The position numbers were made by a program, and so were the translations under genes. From an uncultured Clostridia bacterium (GTDB lineage: Bacteria > Bacillota > Clostridia > Oscillospirales > CAG-382), in contig CANRIX010000002.1 in assembly GCA_947630765.1 (NCBI GenBank), positions 39,387-103,386 of the forward strand: 64,000 bases of DNA, given 5' to 3'. This document shows positions 53,094 through 62,455 of the stretch, one piece after another. The notes beneath the pieces were generated by a model that saw only the letters and a list, made by a program, of their open reading frames with translations, did no database searches and was not told where the DNA came from. Every line of letters begins with the position of its first letter. Positions within the stretch are counted from its first letter, which is position 1.

Positions 53094-55202
53094 TTACCGT
53101 ACCCCGAACAGCAGATCCCCGTAGGTCGGGAACGGCCAAACGTCGGCGGCGGTGAGCGTTTCCGCTTCGTCCGCGGCGGCGCGGAGGACGTCCATGGCGG
53201 GGAGCAGTTCGTCGCGGATCGCGAACGCTTCGGCGTCGACGTCGGCGGACGAGGAAAGCGATTGTTCGACCTGCGAAAGCGCCTCGGCGCGTTCGGCGAT
53301 CTGCGCGGTCAGCGCGGACAGTTTGTGCAGAAGCGATTTTTCGCCTGTGCAGTCCAGCGTTTCGTCGAACGCCTTTTTCGCCGACGCGGCGGACGCGACG
53401 GAGGCGGCGTAGCGCCCGACGGCGGGCAGGATCTCGCGCTTGGCCATGTCGACCATCGTGCGTGCCTCGATGCGGACGGTCTTGCAGTAGTTCTCCATCA
53501 TGATCTCGCACCGGCTCTTCATCTCGTCCTCGGTGTACACCTTGTGCGCGGTCAGCATCGCGACGTTTTTGGCGTCCAGCAGGTGCGGAATGCTGTCCGG
53601 CGTGGTGCGGAGGTTGAGCAGACCGCGAACCTCGGTGGCTTCCTTGATCCACGCGTCGTCGTACCCGTTGCCGTTGAAGATGATGCGCTTGTGGTCGCGG
53701 ACGGTCTCCTGAATGAGCGTGTGCAGGGACGCGTTGAAGTCCGCGCTGCCTTCCAGCCGGTCGGCGAACTGCTTGAGCGATTCGGCGACGGCACTGTTGA
53801 GCATGATGTTCGCGCAGGCGATGCTGTTGGACGAACCGACCATGCGGAACTCGAACTTGTTGCCGGTGAACGCGAAGGGGGACGTGCGGTTGCGGTCGGT
53901 CGTGTCCCGCGTGAAGCGCGGCAGGACGTGGACGCCTAACTTCATCTGGGTCTTTTCCGCACCGCTGTAGGGCCTGTCGTTCTCGATCGCGTCCAGCACG
54001 GCGGTCAGTTCGTCGCCGAGAAAGACCGAAATGACCGCAGGAGGCGCCTCGTTCGCGCCGAGCCGGTGGTCGTTGCCCGCCGTCGCGACCGAAAGCCGCA
54101 GCAGGTCCTGGTAGTCGTCCACCGCCTTGAGGACCGCGCAGAGGAACAGCAGGAACTGCGCGTTCTCGTAGGGCGTTTCGCCGGGCGTCAGCAGGTTGAC
54201 CCCGGTGTCCGTCGCGATCGACCAGTTGTTGTGCTTGCCGGAGCCGTTGACGCCGGCGAACGGCTTTTCATGCAGCAGGCAGACCAGCCCGTGCCGGGAA
54301 GCGACCTTCTGCATGATCTCCATGGTCAGCTGGTTGTGGTCGGTGGCGATGTTGGTGGTCGTGTAGATGGGCGCGAGCTCGTGCTGCGCGGGCGCGACCT
54401 CGTTGTGCTCGGTCTTGGCGAGGATGCCCAATTGCCAGAGTTCCCGGTTCAGGTCCTCCATATAGGCGGCGACGCGGGGCTTGATCGTGCCGAAGTAGTG
54501 GTCGTCGAGCTCCTGTCCCTTGGGCGGTTTGGCGCCGAACAGCGTCCGCCCGGTGTAGATGAGGTCCTTCCTTTTATTGTACATCTCCCGGTCCACGAGG
54601 AAGTATTCCTGCTCCGGGCCGACCGACGTCCGCACGCACTTGACGCTGTCGTTGCCGAACAGCTTCAAAATCCGCATCGCCTGCCGGTTGAGCGCTTCCA
54701 TCGAACGCAGCAGCGGGGTCTTCTTGTCCAGCGCGTGTCCGCCGTAGGAGCAGAACGCGGTCGGAATGCAGAGCGTCCTGTCCTTGATGAACGCGAAGGA
54801 GGTCGGGTCCCACGCGGTGTAGCCCCGCGCTTCAAACGTCGCGCGCAGACCGCCCGACGGGAAAGACGAAGCGTCCGGCTCGCCTTTGATGAGCTCCTTG
54901 CCGGAAAACTCCATGATGACCCGCCCGTCCGGCGCAGGGGAGATGAAGCTGTCGTGTTTTTCGGCGGTCACGCCGGTCATCGGCTGGAACCAGTGGGTGT
55001 AGTGGGTCGCGCCCTGCTCCACCGCCCAGTCCTTCATCGCTTCGGCGACCGCGTTTGCGACCGAAAGGTCCAGCGTCGCGCCCTCGTCGATGGTCTTTTT
55101 CAGCGAGCGGTAGGTCTGCGCCGACAGCCGTGCCTTCATGATGCGTTCGTCAAAGACTTTGCTGCCGAACAGCTCCGTGACCGCTTCCCGTTCTTTTTCC
55201 AT
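53094..55202 (-). CDS. glnN: Glutamine synthetase type III
   Basis: 702 aa from ATG 55202, nine bases after AAAGGA on the minus strand; upstream in-frame codons are leader RNA. Type III (GSIII-1) GS, a dodecamer making glutamine from glutamate, ammonia and ATP. Signatures: GPEQEYFLVD, KTEHNEVAPAQHELAPIYTT, HEKPFAGVNGSGKHNNWS and NRTSPFAFTGNKFEFRMVGS. Length 700 aa fits GSIII and excludes the 440-aa type I form. The leader has a consensus promoter, an A1/G4-hexaloop hairpin and an intrinsic terminator, which suggests antiterminator control (see findings). Confidence 0.97.
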   Translation of the reverse strand: MEKEREAVTELFGSKVFDERIMKARLSAQTYRSLKKTIDEGATLDLSVANAVAEAMKDWAVEQGATHYTHWFQPMTGVTAEKHDSFISPAPDGRVIMEFSGKELIKGEPDASSFPSGGLRATFEARGYTAWDPTSFAFIKDRTLCIPTAFCSYGGHALDKKTPLLRSMEALNRQAMRILKLFGNDSVKCVRTSVGPEQEYFLVDREMYNKRKDLIYTGRTLFGAKPPKGQELDDHYFGTIKPRVAAYMEDLNRELWQLGILAKTEHNEVAPAQHELAPIYTTTNIATDHNQLTMEIMQKVASRHGLVCLLHEKPFAGVNGSGKHNNWSIATDTGVNLLTPGETPYENAQFLLFLCAVLKAVDDYQDLLRLSVATAGNDHRLGANEAPPAVISVFLGDELTAVLDAIENDRPYSGAEKTQMKLGVHVLPRFTRDTTDRNRTSPFAFTGNKFEFRMVGSSNSIACANIMLNSAVAESLKQFADRLEGSADFNASLHTLIQETVRDHKRIIFNGNGYDDAWIKEATEVRGLLNLRTTPDSIPHLLDAKNVAMLTAHKVYTEDEMKSRCEIMMENYCKTVRIEARTMVDMAKREILPAVGRYAASVASAASAKKAFDETLDCTGEKSLLHKLSALTAQIAERAEALSQVEQSLSSSADVDAEAFAIRDELLPAMDVLRAAADEAETLTAADVWPFPTYGDLLFGVR

Positions 55203-55236
55203 AGTGTCCATTCCTTTCTTCTGTTGCCCGAAATCG

Positions 55237-55300
55237 AAAAAAGCAGGGACGCCCCGAAAGCGCCGCAAGCGATGCGGTACGTTTCGCGAGACGTCCTTGC
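55237..55300 (-). terminator. Leader terminator (attenuator) of glnN
   Basis: Minus-strand RNA GCAAGGACG ... CGTCCCTGC followed by TTTTTT (55242-55237): 8 of 9 pairs form, around an inner CCGCA-TCGCT-TGCGG hairpin. It lies between the promoter and the start codon, so read-through must be controlled. Confidence 0.75.
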
Positions 55301-55303
55301 CTC
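55288..55303 (-). promoter_or_regulatory. ANTAR-type antiterminator hairpin of glnN
   Basis: RNA GAGGC-AAGGAC-GTCTC: 5-bp stem (one G-U) and a six-base loop with A at position 1 and G at position 4, as recognised by ANTAR proteins. The loop and 3' arm are also the 5' arm of the terminator GCAAGGACG, so the two folds exclude each other. It starts a few bases after the expected transcription start. Confidence 0.6.
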
Positions 55304-55312
55304 TCTGCTGGC

Positions 55313-55341
55313 AGTATACACCCTTTTTGACGGTTTGTCAA
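55313..55341 (-). promoter_or_regulatory. glnN promoter
   Basis: Minus strand TTGACA (55341-55336), 17-bp spacer, TATACT (55318-55313). Confidence 0.9.
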
Positions 55342-55455: not shown

Positions 55456-55485
55456 TTGACAAAGCGTCTGTGCGCGTGCTATACT
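55456..55485 (+). promoter_or_regulatory. Promoter of the glutamate synthase operon
   Basis: TTGACA (55456-55461), 18-bp spacer, TATACT (55480-55485); expected start of transcription near 55492. Confidence 0.85.
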
Positions 55486-55491
55486 GTGGAA

Positions 55492-55511
55492 CGTGAGCAA
55501 CGGCGTTCACG
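55492..55511 (+). promoter_or_regulatory. ANTAR-type antiterminator hairpin of the glutamate synthase operon
   Basis: CGTGAGC-AACGGC-GTTCACG: 7-bp stem with one G-U pair and a six-base loop with A1 and G4. The 3' half (55503-55510) is also the outer 5' arm of the downstream terminator. A regulator with an ANTAR domain is encoded at the end of the same operon. Confidence 0.68.
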
Positions 55512-55565
55512 GCGCAGGGCGGGGAAGTGCATCGGCAGTCCCGTCCCGCCCGTGGACGCTTTTTT
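55503..55565 (+). terminator. Leader terminator (attenuator) of the glutamate synthase operon
   Basis: GCGTTCAC (55503-55510) pairs with GTGGACGC (55552-55559) and GGGCGGG (55517-55523) with CCCGCCC (55545-55551); TTTTTT follows at once. It precedes the first start codon by 28 bases. Confidence 0.8.
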
Positions 55566-55592: not shown

Positions 55593-56687
55593 ATGAAACC
55601 ATTGGAAGGACAGGTCCGTATCCCGTCCGGCTGCGCCATTTCCGCGGTGATCGCCAAGGACGGGGCACGGATGTCGGGAAGGACCGTCATCGAAAGCATG
55701 AAGCCCATGCACGAGCGCTCCAACGGGTTGGGCGGCGGATTCGCGGGATACGGCATCTACCCGGAGTACCGCGACCTGTACGCGTTGCATCTTTTCTATC
55801 AGGACCGCGAGAGCCGCAGGCAGGGGGAAGAACTGCTGCGGGAATCGTTCGAGGTCGTGCAGGCGGAGGACATTCCGATCCGCAAGATCCCCGCGATCAC
55901 GGATATCCCGATCATCAAGCGGTATTTCGTCGCCCCGCTGCAGTCGCTTTTGTCACGCCTGCAGCTGGACGAGGAGGAGTTCGTCGTCCGCACGGTCATG
56001 CGCATCAATACGACGCTCGACGGCGCGTACGTCTTTTCCAGCGGGAAGAACATGGGGACCTTCAAGGCGGTCGGCTTCCCGGAGGACGTCGGGGTGTTCT
56101 ACCGATTGGAAGAATACGAAGGGTACTCCTGGACGGCGCACGGGCGCTACCCGACCAACACCCCCGGCTGGTGGGGCGGGGCGCACCCGTTCACCCTGCT
56201 CGACCGCTCGGTCGTGCATAACGGCGAGATCTCGTCCTACGACGCGAACCGGCGGTTCATCGAGATGTTCGGCTACCAATGCACCCTGCAGACGGACACC
56301 GAGGTCATCACCTACATCGCGGACTATCTGATGCGCCGGAAGGGGTTGTCCGCTTCGGAAACGGCGTCGGTCGTCGCCGCGCCGTTCTGGTCCACGATCG
56401 AGCGGAAGGAGCCGGAGGAGCGGGAGAAGCTGACCTGGCTTCGGACGGTCTTTTCCAGCCTGCTGATCACCGGACCGTTCTCCATCGTGCTCGGCTATAC
56501 CGGCGGACTTATGGCGCTCAACGACCGGCTCAAACTGCGCAGCATGGTCGTCGGCGAAAAGGGCGAAAAGGTGTACATCGCCAGCGAGGAAGCCGCCATA
56601 CGCGCCATGGAGCCGGAAGCGGAGAACATCTGGGCGCCGGCTGGCGGGGAGCCGGTCATCGTGCAAGTGAAAGAAGGTGCGTTCTGA
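55593..56687 (+). CDS. Glutamate synthase, glutamine amidotransferase subunit (class II)
   Basis: 364 aa from ATG 55593 after GACAGAAAGGAAACCAC; the ORF-track start is inside the terminator. Class II glutaminase fold: IPSGCAISAVIAKDGARMSG with the presumed nucleophile Cys14, HGRYPTNTPGWWGGAHPFTL, LLDRSVVHNGEISSYDANRR and TDTEVITYIADYLMRR. It supplies ammonia from glutamine to the synthase subunit. In archaeal-type systems this domain is a separate protein, as here. Stop overlaps the next ATG (TGATG). Confidence 0.92.
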   Translation: MKPLEGQVRIPSGCAISAVIAKDGARMSGRTVIESMKPMHERSNGLGGGFAGYGIYPEYRDLYALHLFYQDRESRRQGEELLRESFEVVQAEDIPIRKIPAITDIPIIKRYFVAPLQSLLSRLQLDEEEFVVRTVMRINTTLDGAYVFSSGKNMGTFKAVGFPEDVGVFYRLEEYEGYSWTAHGRYPTNTPGWWGGAHPFTLLDRSVVHNGEISSYDANRRFIEMFGYQCTLQTDTEVITYIADYLMRRKGLSASETASVVAAPFWSTIERKEPEEREKLTWLRTVFSSLLITGPFSIVLGYTGGLMALNDRLKLRSMVVGEKGEKVYIASEEAAIRAMEPEAENIWAPAGGEPVIVQVKEGAF

Positions 56688-58192
56688 TGGGAATCGAATA
56701 CCTGACCCCGGAATTTGAGGTCCTTCGCAACCCGGACCGCTGTATCGCCTGTCGCGTCTGCGAACGGCAGTGCGCCAACGAGGTGCATTTCTACGACCCC
56801 GACGACGGGAAGATGCACTGCGACGAAAGCAAGTGCGTGGACTGCCAGCGGTGCGTTTCGCTCTGCCCGACGCACGCGTTGAAGATCGTCCGAAACGAGC
56901 AGGTCTTTCGCGAAAACGCCAACTGGCAGGCGGACACGATTCGCGAGATCTATAAGCAGGCGTCCAGCGGGGGCGTCCTGCTGTCCTCGATGGGTAACCC
57001 GAAGCCGTTCCCGATCTATTGGGATAAGCTGCTGCTGAACGCTTCGCAGGTGACGAACCCGCCGATCGACCCGCTGCGCGAGCCGATGGAAACGCGGGTG
57101 TTTCTCGGCAAGAAGCCGACCGACTGCGTCCGCGACGAAAACGGGAAGCTGAAAACCGATCTCCCGCCCCAGCTGACGCTTTCCATGCCGGTCCTGTTTT
57201 CGGCGATGAGCTACGGCTCGATCAGCTACAACGCCCACGAGAGCCTCGCCCGGGCGGCGACGGAGCTCGGCATCTGCTACAACACCGGCGAGGGCGGTCT
57301 GCACGAGGATTTCTACCGCTACGGTCCGAACACGATCGTGCAGGTCGCGTCCGGGCGGTTCGGCGTGCACGAGGCGTACCTGAATGCGGGCGCTGCGATC
57401 GAGATCAAGATGGGGCAGGGCGCGAAGCCCGGCATCGGCGGACACCTGCCCGGCGCGAAGATCGTCGGCGACGTCTCCCGCACCCGCATGATCCCGGAGG
57501 GGTCCGACGCGATCTCGCCCGCCCCGCACCACGACATTTACTCCATCGAGGATCTGCGGCAATTGGTCTATTCGCTCAAGGAAGCGACCTGCTACCGCAA
57601 GCCGGTCATCGTCAAGGTCGCCGCCGTGCATAATATCGCCGCCATCGCCAGCGGCATCGCCCGCAGCGGCGCGGACATCATCGCCATCGACGGCTTCCGC
57701 GGCGGCACCGGCGCGGCGCCGACCCGCATCCGCGACAACGTCGGCATTCCGATCGAACTTGCGCTCGCCAGCGTGGACCAACGTCTGCGCGACGAGGGCA
57801 TTCGCGACCAGGTGTCCTTGGTCGTCGGCGGAAGTATCCGCAGTGCGGCGGACGTCGTCAAAGCGGTGGCGCTCGGCGCGGACGCCTGCTATATCGCGAC
57901 GGCGGCGCTGCTCGCGCTCGGCTGTCACCTCTGCCGCACCTGCCAGACCGGCAAGTGCAACTGGGGGATCGCGACCCAGCGCCCGGAACTGGTCAAACGG
58001 CTCAATCCCGCCGTCGGCAGCGAGCGACTGGTCAACCTGATGACCGCTTGGCGGCACGAGATCATGGAGATCATGGGCGGAATGGGCATCAATTCCATCG
58101 AAGCCCTGCGGGGCAACCGCCTGATGCTGCGGGGCGTCGGACTCAACGGAAAGGAGCTGGAGATCCTCGGGGTCTCCCACGCGGGACAATGA
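56687..58192 (+). CDS. Glutamate synthase, FMN/Fe-S synthase subunit (archaeal type)
   Basis: 501 aa from ATG 56687; the ORF-track 637-aa version extends into the previous gene. N-terminal ferredoxin domain with two 4Fe-4S motifs (CIACRVCERQCANE; CVDCQRCVSLCPTHALK), then the FMN-binding TIM barrel (MSYGSISYNAHESLARAATE; EIKMGQGAKPGIGGHLPGAK; DGFRGGTGAAPTR; GADACYIATAALLALGCHLC) and a C-terminal cluster CHLCRTCQTGKCNWG. It condenses 2-oxoglutarate and ammonia to glutamate using reduced electron carrier. Confidence 0.95.
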   Translation: MGIEYLTPEFEVLRNPDRCIACRVCERQCANEVHFYDPDDGKMHCDESKCVDCQRCVSLCPTHALKIVRNEQVFRENANWQADTIREIYKQASSGGVLLSSMGNPKPFPIYWDKLLLNASQVTNPPIDPLREPMETRVFLGKKPTDCVRDENGKLKTDLPPQLTLSMPVLFSAMSYGSISYNAHESLARAATELGICYNTGEGGLHEDFYRYGPNTIVQVASGRFGVHEAYLNAGAAIEIKMGQGAKPGIGGHLPGAKIVGDVSRTRMIPEGSDAISPAPHHDIYSIEDLRQLVYSLKEATCYRKPVIVKVAAVHNIAAIASGIARSGADIIAIDGFRGGTGAAPTRIRDNVGIPIELALASVDQRLRDEGIRDQVSLVVGGSIRSAADVVKAVALGADACYIATAALLALGCHLCRTCQTGKCNWGIATQRPELVKRLNPAVGSERLVNLMTAWRHEIMEIMGGMGINSIEALRGNRLMLRGVGLNGKELEILGVSHAGQ

Positions 58193-58629
58193 AACGAGTG
58201 TATGTCAACGAGGACTGGTGTCTCGGCTGTCACCTGTGCGAATACAACTGCGCATTCGCCAATTCCGGCGTTTCGGACATGGCGAAGGCGCTGAAAAACA
58301 AGCCGATCTTCCCCCGCATCCGCGTCGAGGAGGACGGGAAGATCTCCTACGCGGTGTCCTGCCGCCATTGCGAGGACCCGATCTGCGTGCGAAGCTGCAT
58401 CTCCGGCGCCCTTTCGGTGAAGGACGGTGCGGTGTGCATCGACCGCGAGCGGTGCGTCGGGTGTCTGACCTGCGTGCTGGTCTGCCCGTACGGCGCGGTG
58501 TCGCAGAACGGGGACGGCGTGGTCCAGAAGTGCGAACTGTGCCTGCAAAACAGCTTCGGTGCGCCCGCCTGCGTGCAGGGCTGCCCGAACCGGGCGATCG
58601 TCTATGAGGAACGGGGGGAAGCCGAATGA
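58189..58629 (+). CDS. Polyferredoxin-type electron-transfer subunit
   Basis: 146 aa from ATG 58189 (ATGA overlap with the previous stop). Four Cys clusters in the pattern of DMSO-reductase-B/HycB-like proteins: WCLGCHLCEYNCAFA, CRHCEDPICVRSC, CVGCLTCVLVCPYGAV and CELCLQNSFGAPACVQGCP. Carries electrons to the synthase, probably from the adjacent FAD oxidoreductase. Overlaps it by four bases. Confidence 0.92.
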   Translation: MKRVYVNEDWCLGCHLCEYNCAFANSGVSDMAKALKNKPIFPRIRVEEDGKISYAVSCRHCEDPICVRSCISGALSVKDGAVCIDRERCVGCLTCVLVCPYGAVSQNGDGVVQKCELCLQNSFGAPACVQGCPNRAIVYEERGEAE

Positions 58630-59882
58630 GCAAGCAGAAGCGTTACGTCATCGTCGGCAACGGCGTCGCCGCGGCCGGCTGCATCGAGGGGATCCGCTCG
58701 GTCGACCCGGACGGACCCATCACGGTGGTTTCGGCGGAGCCGTACCCGGTCTACTGCCGTCCGCTGATTTCCTATTGCCTCGAAGGCAAGGCGTCCCCCG
58801 AGCGGATGAACTACCGCCCGGCGGATTTCTACGAAACCAACGGCTGCGCCGTGCGATACGGCGAAAAGGCGCTCTCCCTCGACCCGGCGGGGCATACCGT
58901 TTCGCTGGACGGCGGGGAAGTCCTGCCCTACGACGCGCTGTGCGTCTGCACGGGGTCAAGCCCGTTCGTCCCGCCGATGGAAGGGCTGGACGGCGTCGAA
59001 AAGAAGTGCACCTTCCTGACGCTCGACGACATGAAAACGCTCGAAACCTTCCTGACGCCGGACGCGAAGGTGCTGATCATCGGCGCGGGGCTGATCGGGC
59101 TGAAGTGCGCCGAGGGGTTACGGGACCGCGTCGCGGACATCGCCGTGTGCGACCTTGCGGACCGGGTGCTTTCGAGCATCCTCGACGCGGACTGCGCGAA
59201 GATCATGCAGGAGCACCTCGAAAGGAACGGACTGCGCTTCCTGCTCGGGGACAGCGTGGAACGGTTCGACGGGAACGTCGCGCACTTCCGTTCCGGGAAA
59301 ACCGAGGCGTTCGACGTGCTGGTGCTGGCGGTCGGCGTTCGCGCGAACCTCGCGCTCGTCAAGGACGCCGGCGGGGAGACCGGGCGCGGCGTCGCCGTGG
59401 ATACGCGGATGCGCACGACCCTGCCGGACGTGTATGCCGCCGGGGACTGCGCCGAGGGGCTTGACAGCTCCTGCGGGACGCGGCGGGTGCTCGCCATTCT
59501 GCCGAACGCTTACGCGCAGGGACGCACGGCGGGGAAGAACATGGCGGGCGGATCGGACGAGCTGACCGACGCGATCCCGATGAACGCCATCGGCTTCTTC
59601 GGACTGCACGCCCTGACCGCCGGCAGTTACTACACGCCGGAGCAGGGCGGGGAGGTCTACGAGGAACGCGGGGACGGCAAGATCCGCCGCCTGTTCACGA
59701 AGGACGGTCTGCTGACCGGGTTTATCCTGATCGGCGACGTGGAACGGGCGGGCATTTACACGTCCCTGATCCGCAAAAAGCAGCCGCTCGCGGAGCTGGA
59801 TTTTGAACTTTTGAAAAAAAGTCCGACGTTTCTCGCTTTTGGCAAAGAAAAACGTGGACATTTCTTCGGAGGTGTGGTATAA
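58626..59882 (+). CDS. FAD-dependent NAD(P)H oxidoreductase of the glutamate synthase operon
   Basis: 418 aa. Two Rossmann folds: YVIVGNGVAAAGCIEGIRSV (FAD) and KVLIIGAGLIGLKCAEGLRD (NAD(P)H), and DVYAAGDCAEGLDSSCGTRR (FAD contact). PYPVYCRPLISYCLEGKASP is typical of NADH:rubredoxin/nitrite reductase-like flavoproteins. It probably passes electrons from NAD(P)H through the polyferredoxin to the synthase, replacing the GltD subunit. Stop is directly followed by the TTG start of the next gene. Confidence 0.9.
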   Translation: MSKQKRYVIVGNGVAAAGCIEGIRSVDPDGPITVVSAEPYPVYCRPLISYCLEGKASPERMNYRPADFYETNGCAVRYGEKALSLDPAGHTVSLDGGEVLPYDALCVCTGSSPFVPPMEGLDGVEKKCTFLTLDDMKTLETFLTPDAKVLIIGAGLIGLKCAEGLRDRVADIAVCDLADRVLSSILDADCAKIMQEHLERNGLRFLLGDSVERFDGNVAHFRSGKTEAFDVLVLAVGVRANLALVKDAGGETGRGVAVDTRMRTTLPDVYAAGDCAEGLDSSCGTRRVLAILPNAYAQGRTAGKNMAGGSDELTDAIPMNAIGFFGLHALTAGSYYTPEQGGEVYEERGDGKIRRLFTKDGLLTGFILIGDVERAGIYTSLIRKKQPLAELDFELLKKSPTFLAFGKEKRGHFFGGVV

Positions 59883-60608
59883 TTGAAGATCATAGAGGCA
59901 AACGGGCTGGACTGCCGGGAGATCAACGAGGCGGTCCGGCAGTCGGACGGGGTCTGTGAGATCCGGGGCTGTCTCGGACAGCGGTTCATCGCCGCAGGCG
60001 CCGGAGAGAACTTCCGCCTGACGGTTCGCGGGGTGCCGGGCAACGCGCTCGGCGCGTACCTCAACGGTGCGGAGATTTACACGGAGGGCAACGCGCAGGA
60101 CGCGGTCGGCGACACGATGAACGCCGGACGCATCGTCGTCAACGGCAGCATCGGCGACGCCGCCGGATACGCCATGCGCGGCGGCATGATCCTGGTTCGT
60201 GGGAGCGCCGGCTACCGCGCGGGAATCCACATGAAGGCGTACCGGGAAAAACTGCCGGTCATGGTCATCGGCGGGCGCACGGGCAGCTTCTTAGGCGAAT
60301 ACCAGGCGGGCGGCGTCATCGTCGTGCTGGGTCTGCACGACGACGGAAAGGACATCGTCGGCAACTTCCCCTGCACGGGTATGCACGGCGGCAGGCTCTT
60401 CCTGCGGTCCCGCTGCGAGAGGATCCGCTTCCCGAAGCAGGTCCATACCCATCTCGCGTCGGACGCGGAAAAGCAGGAGCTGCAAACCTATCTGACCCCC
60501 TTCTGCGAGGCGTTCGGGTACTCGCTCGAAACCCTGCTCGACGCGGACTACACGGTCGTCACCCCGGACAGCAAAAACCCCTATCGCCAGATGTACGTGG
60601 CGAACTGA
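59883..60608 (+). CDS. Glutamate synthase GXGXG-domain subunit
   Basis: 241 aa from TTG 59883, nine bases after CGGAGGTG. The glycine-rich right-handed beta-helix typical of the C-terminal third of GltB: GNALGAYLNGAEIYTEGNAQ, VNGSIGDAAGYAMRGGMILV and GGRTGSFLGEYQAGGVIVVL, then FPCTGMHGGRLFLR. In archaeal-type systems it is a separate subunit that organises the ammonia channel. Translation appears coupled to the upstream stop. Confidence 0.93.
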   Translation: MKIIEANGLDCREINEAVRQSDGVCEIRGCLGQRFIAAGAGENFRLTVRGVPGNALGAYLNGAEIYTEGNAQDAVGDTMNAGRIVVNGSIGDAAGYAMRGGMILVRGSAGYRAGIHMKAYREKLPVMVIGGRTGSFLGEYQAGGVIVVLGLHDDGKDIVGNFPCTGMHGGRLFLRSRCERIRFPKQVHTHLASDAEKQELQTYLTPFCEAFGYSLETLLDADYTVVTPDSKNPYRQMYVAN

Positions 60609-60626: not shown

Positions 60627-61829
60627 ATGGACACTTCGGCGGAGGAGATCATGCAGTACGTCCGGGAGGAGGACGTGAAATTCATTCGGCTCGCGTTCTG
60701 CGACGTGTTCGGACGGATGAAGAACCTGTCCGTGCAGCCGGGCGAGCTGTCCCGCGCGTTCGCGGGCGGCATCCCGTTCAACCCCGCCCCGGTGCGGGGG
60801 TTCGGCGGGGAAGCGTGCGAGGAGCTGTTCCTCTGCCCGGACCCGTCCACCATTTCGGTCCTGCCGTGGCGCCCGGAGCACGGGCGGGTGGTGCGCATGT
60901 TCTGTGCGCTTCGCCGTGCAGACGGGACGGTCTCGGACGCGGACACGCGTTCGCTGCTGCGGGAAGCGGCAGCCGACGCGGAGAAGTTTGGCGTGACCTT
61001 CACGTTCGGCTCCCGCATGGAATTCTACCTGTTTGAGACCGACGAAAACGGCGAACCGACGGTCCGCCCGTTCGACCGTGCCGGGTACATGGACATCGCC
61101 CCGGAGGACAAGGGCGAAAACGTCCGCCGGGAGATCTGCCTGACGCTCGAACGCATGGGGATCCCGCCGGAAAGCTCCCACCACGAGGAGGGTCCCGGGC
61201 AGAACGAGATCGACTTCCGCCACGCCGACCCGCTCGCCGCGGCGGACTACGCGATGACCTTCCGCGCCGTCGTGCGGACCGTCGCGTCCCGCAGCGGGCT
61301 GTACGCCAGTTTTTCCCCCAAACCCCTCGCGGGACAGCCGGGGAACGGGTTCCACGTCCGCTTTTCCGCCCGCCGCGCCGACGGGGAGGACCCGCTTCCC
61401 GCCGCGTCCGCCGGGGTCCTGCGCCGTGCCTGCGAGATGACCGCTTTCCTGAACCCGGAGGAGGCTTCCTACGCCCGCCTCGGCGACCACCGCGCCCCGC
61501 GCTACGTCACTTGGTCGCCCCGGAACCGCAGCCAGCTTCTGCGCGTCCCGTCGTTCGGCGAACGCTGGGCGGAACTGCGCTCGCCGGACCCGACGGCGAA
61601 TCCCTACCTGGTTTTCGCCCTGCTGATCCGGGCGGGACTGGAAGGGGTCGCCGCGTCGCTTTCCCTGCCGGACGCGGTCGAACGCGACCTGCGCACCGCC
61701 CCCGCCAACCTGCTGGATGCCCTCGGTCGCCTGCCGGACAGCCTTTCGGACGCCCGTGCGCTCGCACGGGAGTCGGCGTTTATCCGTGCGCATCTGCCGG
61801 AGGCGGTCGTCCGCGCGTACTGCGGTTGA
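60627..61829 (+). CDS. Type I-like glutamine synthetase, short form
   Basis: 400 aa, ATG 60627 after AACGAAAGGAAGAACC. GS fold: RLAFCDVFGRMKNLSVQPGE, GSRMEFYLFETDENG (Glu metal ligand), HHEEGPGQNEIDFRHADPLA, GQPGNGFHVRFS, WSPRNRSQLLRVPSFGERWA and ELRSPDPTANPYL. It is about 40 residues shorter than GlnA and lacks the usual GSGMHxHxS wording at the nucleotide loop (here GNGFHVRFS), so it may have altered specificity or a regulatory role. It is the second GS at this locus beside glnN. Confidence 0.88.
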   Translation: MDTSAEEIMQYVREEDVKFIRLAFCDVFGRMKNLSVQPGELSRAFAGGIPFNPAPVRGFGGEACEELFLCPDPSTISVLPWRPEHGRVVRMFCALRRADGTVSDADTRSLLREAAADAEKFGVTFTFGSRMEFYLFETDENGEPTVRPFDRAGYMDIAPEDKGENVRREICLTLERMGIPPESSHHEEGPGQNEIDFRHADPLAAADYAMTFRAVVRTVASRSGLYASFSPKPLAGQPGNGFHVRFSARRADGEDPLPAASAGVLRRACEMTAFLNPEEASYARLGDHRAPRYVTWSPRNRSQLLRVPSFGERWAELRSPDPTANPYLVFALLIRAGLEGVAASLSLPDAVERDLRTAPANLLDALGRLPDSLSDARALARESAFIRAHLPEAVVRAYCG

Positions 61830-61861: not shown

Positions 61862-62455
61862 ATGGCGATCCCGCGAATGCCGCAGGAGTGCGTCTACAGC
61901 GTTCTCCTGGTTTCGGCGTCGGAAAAATTCAATCGTTCCCTGCGTGCGCTGCTGCCGGAAGAGACGTTCGTCACGGTCGTGACGGCGACGGACGTCGGTA
62001 CGGCGCGCCGTCTGCTGCTCGGGCGCCGCTTCGACCTGCTGCTCGTCAATGCCCCTCTGCCGGACGAATTCGGCGACCGCTTCGCGCAATCGGTTTCCTT
62101 GGACGGCGAAACGGGGGTGCTGCTGTTCGTCAAGGCGGAGCAGTACGACGAAATTTCGCTGTCGCTTCTGCGGTTCGGCGTCCTCACCCTCGCGAAGCCC
62201 GCGTCCCCGCACGCGGTCTCCCAGGCGCTTCGCCTGCTTTGCGCGACCCGGGAACGGCTGCGCGTAGCACAGGAACGCAACGAAGCGCTGGAGAAGAAGA
62301 TGGAGGAGGTGCGGCTGGTCAGCCGCGCGAAGGCGGCGCTTTCCGCACGGTACGGTATGACCGAAGCGGACGCGCACCGCTACATCGAAAAGCAGGCCAT
62401 GGACCGCTGTCTGACCAGGCGCGAAGTGGCGCAGGAGATCCTCGGGCCGGACTGA
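61862..62455 (+). CDS. ANTAR-domain antiterminator with pseudo-receiver domain
   Basis: 197 aa from ATG 61862 after GGGGAGGCGAGAGGA. Residues 10-125 have a receiver-like fold, but the phosphoacceptor is replaced (FDLLLVNAPLPDEFG has Asn where Asp is expected) and the N-terminal acidic pair is missing, so input is probably not phosphorylation. The coiled coil ERNEALEKKMEEVRLVSRAK leads to the ANTAR domain (AALSARYGMTEADAHRYIEK; RREVAQEIL), which binds paired hexaloop hairpins in RNA to prevent termination. Being last in a GS/GOGAT operon, it most likely controls that operon and glnN. Confidence 0.92.
   Translation: MAIPRMPQECVYSVLLVSASEKFNRSLRALLPEETFVTVVTATDVGTARRLLLGRRFDLLLVNAPLPDEFGDRFAQSVSLDGETGVLLFVKAEQYDEISLSLLRFGVLTLAKPASPHAVSQALRLLCATRERLRVAQERNEALEKKMEEVRLVSRAKAALSARYGMTEADAHRYIEKQAMDRCLTRREVAQEILGPD

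Follow-up and report, generated by a model that had tools for sequence, protein, structure and literature searches.

A single 5'-terminal hexaloop in the glnN and glt leaders of an uncultured Clostridia bacterium as a probable target of the ANTAR protein NitR

The glnN leader and the divergent glt operon

All coordinates are positions within the stretch of DNA analysed, 64,000 nt in length and referred to here as the window. The glnN gene (53094-55202, minus strand) encodes a type III glutamine synthetase (Pfam GSIII_N, 1.6e-81), and its leader is read on the minus strand. The promoter (55313-55341) consists of a -35 box, TTGACA, at 55341-55336, a 17-nt spacer and a -10 box, TATACT, at 55318-55313, and transcription is predicted to start near 55306. 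A hairpin with a 6-nt loop, or hexaloop, lies at the 5' end of the predicted transcript (55288-55303), made up of GAGGC (55303-55299), the loop AAGGAC (55298-55293) and GTCTC (55292-55288). The stem has 5 bp, including one G.U pair, and the loop has an A at position 1 and a G at position 4 (A1/G4). This hairpin is the putative antiterminator and candidate binding site of the ANTAR protein NitR. An intrinsic terminator follows (55237-55300), with its 5' arm, GCAAGGACG, at 55300-55292, its 3' arm, CGTCCCTGC, at 55251-55243 and a run of six T residues at 55242-55237. The hexaloop hairpin shares this 5' arm, and its loop and 3' arm form part of the terminator. The initial annotation had given the positions and letters of these elements correctly, leaving unmentioned a single A.C mismatch between the terminator arms.

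The divergent operon, on the plus strand, has the same layout. A promoter (TTGACA-18-TATACT, 55456-55485) is followed by a hexaloop hairpin (CGTGAGC-AACGGC-GTTCACG, 55492-55511) and by an overlapping terminator (55502-55565) with arms GGCGTTCACGG and CCGTGGACGCT and a T-run. The operon begins with a multi-gene glutamate synthase (55593-60608), the parts of which are glutaminase-like, Fe-S/FMN synthase, ferredoxin-like, pyridine nucleotide-disulphide oxidoreductase and GXGXG. Next is a gene for a short GSI-like protein related to glutamine synthetase (60627-61829), a candidate sensor partner, directly 5' of nitR (61862-62455), which encodes a pseudo-receiver and an ANTAR domain, closes the operon and lies 7 kb from the glnN leader. 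When both strands of the window were scanned for a promoter, hexaloop and terminator in combination, exactly two units were recovered, namely the glnN and glt leaders, which agrees with the earlier proposal of a shared layout. The two stems had been called unrelated. Their mutually exclusive design holds, but the stems are not wholly unrelated, as both have a closing C-G, a G.U as the next pair and the loop AANGRC.

Predicted folding of the leaders

For the 80-nt glnN leader the predicted fold is the terminator (-37.1 kcal/mol, z -3.8); the leader's first 24 nt, taken by themselves, give the hexaloop hairpin (-6.2 kcal/mol). Counted from the predicted +1, the terminator reaches -36.6 kcal/mol versus -22.6 kcal/mol when the hexaloop hairpin is enforced, a gap of 14 kcal/mol. 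As the transcript grows, the hexaloop is the best predicted fold at lengths of 20 to 56 nt, after which it is displaced. Folding thus bears out the proposal that the A1/G4 hexaloop overlaps the terminator arm and that the two folds exclude one another. A 5-bp A1/G4 hexaloop was found in 75 of 2000 dinucleotide shuffles; a stem of at least 5 bp together with an overlapping terminator was found in 1 of 2000 for the glnN leader and in none of 2000 for the glt leader.

An antiterminator/terminator architecture is common among riboswitch, T-box and leader-peptide attenuators, and any of these sensors could in principle act on the same antiterminator hairpin. However, a search of the window against Rfam gave no match at the gathering score and hence no known riboswitch family, the 5' part is only about 20 nt and too small for known aptamers, the loop fits the consensus for ANTAR targets, and genomes with the motif tend to have an ANTAR gene (see below). 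Another sensor is therefore considered very unlikely.

Conservation, covariation and regulon content

Leaders of the glt operon, of the divergent glnN and, in two genomes, of asnA were collected from a family survey of 63 genomes. This yielded 23 units from 13 genomes and eight genera, each with a consensus promoter and one hexaloop hairpin and mostly with a detected overlapping terminator. The hairpin is thus present in the orthologous glnN leaders of other genera, where its absence had been named in advance as the observation that would refute the initial proposal. The alignment gives AANGRN for the loop and an invariant closing C-G, with -35 and -10 boxes that are invariant or almost so; the search that selected the units had used part of this consensus (the first look required only A1, G4 and a stem). 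The 5-bp stem is paired in 93.9 % of cells and shows 30 double changes; its covariation is 0.685, compared with 0.316 for shuffled alignments and at most 0.28 when the stem is slid. Within the genus, a glnN that is beside glt has the attenuator and a glnN that is not beside glt has a plain promoter without one. A second glnN paralogue of the window genome (L024, G000:C24:12521-13099) likewise has a plain promoter and no attenuator; one of the type III copies in this genome may be constitutive and the other nitrogen-controlled.

A second survey took in 80 named NitR loci, almost all of them clostridial, and examined all 94 matches of at least 30 bits to a covariance model of the promoter plus hexaloop. 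The matches are spread over 59 loci, 26 of which carry units on both strands. The hexaloop forms in all but one (93/94), and an overlapping terminator was detected for 80. Among the 93 units, the closing pair is C-G in 92, the second pair is G.U in 75 and the third pair is G-C in 53 and A-U in 40. As the stem covaries and the G.U wobble is kept, the element acts as RNA; judged from the aligned sequences, the pairing pattern is an RNA's and not a DNA palindrome's. The near-fixed distance of the element from the -10 box (11-18 nt) and its dyad symmetry are also what would be seen if a nitrogen-responsive transcription factor used an inverted repeat at +1 as its DNA operator, with the terminator overlap incidental. 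Yet the conserved G.U breaks DNA symmetry, conservation is highest in the 6-nt loop, the overlap with a terminator recurs in 80/93 units, and second, downstream units in glnN and amtB leaders are far from the promoter. An operator is accordingly considered very unlikely.

Two hexaloop units in series were seen in the glnN leaders L006/L063, L057, L058 and L062 and in the amtB leaders L100, L103 and L115. Most of these serial units have a terminator of their own, and series of this kind before one gene would make control steeper.

Outside its training set, the covariance model matched before amtB, gdhA, a GS-nitR pair, glnN, asnA and a purF-like gene, and Pfam searches covered six of the gene products. 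The purF-like gene (L099, G044:C2:19353-19412), for an amidotransferase that consumes glutamine, has a hexaloop attenuator. Of the 21 genomes that encode an ANTAR protein, each by a single gene, 13 have matches above 40 bits, compared with 2 of the 42 that encode none (p 1.5e-6), a comparison that takes in the genomes whose leaders trained the model. The two exceptions, with strong leaders and no ANTAR gene detected, are G023 (82 % complete) and G046 (estimated to be 100 % complete). The strong leaders in G046 are those of glt and glnN (L065/L116); an assembly gap, contamination or a different regulator could each account for this genome. Several genomes with an ANTAR protein have no strong match, in some cases probably because of contig ends. 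Low-scoring matches in the window genome itself (before recA, C6:44977) and in G039, G044 (C1), G057 and G021 were rejected as promoter matches that lack the hexaloop or a well-placed overlapping terminator.

Taken together, the conservation in orthologues, the covariation, the co-occurrence with ANTAR genes and the untrained matches before nitrogen genes give good support to the view that both divergent leaders carry the same ANTAR target, as the initial annotation had proposed after noting their likeness, with NitR as the putative binding protein.

One hexaloop per leader

ANTAR targets have been described as A1/G4 hexaloops that overlap terminators, often before nitrogen genes (PMC3369931). 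Those that have been characterised consist of two hexaloop hairpins separated by a short linker (PMC3369931, PMC8934654). Antitermination in the eut system requires both of the hairpins (PMC8934654, PMC3369931), and a single hexaloop is the minimal ANTAR binding unit (PMC8934654). Two hairpins with a short linker, as in eut, were found neither in the glnN leader nor as a feature of the 93 homologous leaders. A second hexaloop within 25 nt is present in 6 of the 93, compared with 5.05 expected from shuffles, and so is not in excess. The distance from the -10 box to the loop is 11-18 nt in 85 of 88 leaders; the hairpin therefore starts within a few nt of +1, leaving no room for a P1 between the -10 box and the hairpin. 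In the distant NitR loci L220, L221 and L223, the GS leader again has one hexaloop.

These leaders could nevertheless be classical dual-hexaloop targets with a degenerate second hexaloop, for instance in the inner loop GCATCGCT. GCATCG, the inner-loop similarity remarked on in the initial annotation, is found in both window leaders, and ATCGCT/ATCGGC has A1 and G4. The similarity did not extend further, as GCATCG is confined to the same species cluster and is in none of the other genera, and the glt leader of a close relative (L055) has GCAGCG. The GCATCG inner loop was therefore rejected as a second hexaloop. Moreover, a similar scan did recover a typical dual motif, in which the second loop lies 45 nt from the -10 box, at L235, which belongs to another, non-NitR ANTAR class, and dual hexaloops are thus within reach of the scan. 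With no excess of second hexaloops and no upstream space for one, there is little likelihood that a degenerate dual target underlies these leaders.

NitR and its glutamine-synthetase-like neighbour

The nitR product is the sole ANTAR protein above the cut-off in a Pfam search of the whole genome. A second, weak match (C12, 21.7 bits) was set aside because it is below the Pfam cut-off and occurs also in genomes without the leaders. The closest solved relatives of the window NitR are Rv1626 (1s8n), AmiR (1qo0) and EutV (6wsh). In alignments to these structures, NitR keeps the Met with which EutV plugs the hexaloop, and the Tyr that stacks on G4 is replaced by His, as in AmiR. The acceptor Asp of an EutV-type phosphorylated receiver is absent from the window NitR, which has Asn, and from all of the 80 loci, in which the position is N (71), H (4), Q (3), S (1) or C (1). 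NitR is therefore regarded as having a pseudo-receiver and, as the usual Asp is unavailable for phosphorylation, is probably switched by a partner protein.

A glutamine synthetase gene directly precedes nitR in 78 of the 80 loci, and the protein encoded directly upstream is most likely the partner, in the role of a sensor. The flap glutamate, which has a catalytic role in glutamine synthetase, is that of the EAP motif in enzymes such as 7tdp. This position is Lys in 76 of the 78 neighbours and Arg in the window, and the remaining substrate and metal residues that were compared are largely retained across the 78 loci. Two more positions in the active site of the window protein are occupied by Arg and Asn. 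Besides this protein, the window genome encodes two synthetases, both of type III. In the more distant loci inspected the neighbouring GS, where found, has the normal flap Glu, and at one of these (L229) an Asp aligns at the NitR acceptor position. These residues suggest that the GS-like protein is probably a non-catalytic sensor. The simplest reading is that an ancestral GS both made glutamine and controlled NitR, and that in this clade only the control would have been kept. The analysis thereby points to an ANTAR regulator whose sensor is a GS-like protein. We put forward tentatively, as a possibility, that there is a widespread clostridial ANTAR class with one 5'-terminal hexaloop per terminator and a non-phosphorylatable NitR set by a GS-like enzyme turned nitrogen sensor, in which the ligand site is mostly kept and the catalytic flap glutamate lost.

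Proposed mechanism

An A1/G4 hexaloop, its overlap with a terminator and an ANTAR gene in the same genome, three features of an ANTAR-controlled attenuator, are all found for the glnN leader. The leader is very probably a transcription attenuator under the control of NitR as putative antiterminator. Transcription would begin near 55306, and the initial 20 nt or so of the RNA would fold into the A1/G4 hexaloop hairpin. Under nitrogen excess, NitR would be inactive, and the loop and 3' arm of the hairpin would pair with downstream sequence to form the terminator, stopping transcription before glnN. Under nitrogen scarcity, NitR would be active and bind the hexaloop, hold the hairpin and block the terminator, allowing glnN to be read. 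As the glt-GS-nitR operon has the same attenuator, NitR would co-induce glutamate synthase, the glutamine synthetase and itself. NitR binding to the glnN and glt hexaloops is thus predicted, and the presumed direction of the nitrogen response is taken by analogy from what is reported of NitR in Clostridium saccharobutylicum; the anatomy of the glnN leader fits antitermination under nitrogen limitation.

This interpretation draws on the anatomy, the exclusivity of the folds in silico, the conservation, the covariation, the regulon content and the gene linkage described above. Weighed against it were the presence of one hexaloop rather than the two needed in eut, the genomes G046 and G023, the ANTAR genomes without matches and the A.C mismatch in the terminator. 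It offers a way to explain how nitrogen genes are controlled in uncultured Clostridia of the gut and rumen, many of which have this one-hairpin layout before such genes.

Comparison with known systems

The EutV/EutW eut system of Enterococcus faecalis shares with the window leaders the A1/G4 hexaloop, the conserved closing C-G and the overlap with the terminator 5' arm. However, it has two hexaloops, a linker of 5-12 nt and a phosphorylated receiver, in place of one 5'-end hexaloop and a receiver without the acceptor Asp (PMC3369931, PMC8934654). The NasS-NasT and AmiC-AmiR systems are alike in having a partner-controlled ANTAR protein, with a pseudo-receiver in AmiR (PMC3369931, PMC8934654), and differ in that the neighbour in the window is a glutamine-synthetase-like protein with a presumptive partner role. 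The putative ANTAR regulons of Desulfotomaculum (Ramesh et al. 2012, PMC3369931) involve the same gene classes, namely glutamate synthase and other nitrogen genes, and the same attenuation logic, but were derived from a dual-hairpin model that single-hexaloop leaders do not fit.

The closest likeness is to C. saccharobutylicum, in which, according to PMC6316151 (citing Stutz et al. 2007), the ANTAR regulator NitR is linked to the GS/GOGAT genes and antiterminates and induces them on nitrogen limitation. The window nitR, too, is linked to genes for glutamine synthetase and glutamate synthase, and at the distant NitR loci surveyed one hexaloop likewise precedes the GS gene. The window clade differs in having a leader on the type III synthetase gene glnN, divergent from glt, and a GS beside nitR without the flap glutamate. 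The anatomy of the C. saccharobutylicum leader RNA was not found in the openly readable literature searched, nor was a description there of a variant with one 5'-terminal hexaloop. The glnN and glt attenuators most likely represent NitR-type ANTAR antitermination of nitrogen-assimilation genes as in C. saccharobutylicum. Attenuation of nitrogen genes by ANTAR proteins is known, and the system described here is a variant of it with one 5'-terminal hexaloop. Structural work on EutV left open how widely single hexaloops serve as ANTAR targets (PMC8934654), and the approximately 100 natural one-hexaloop attenuators found here make that question directly testable.
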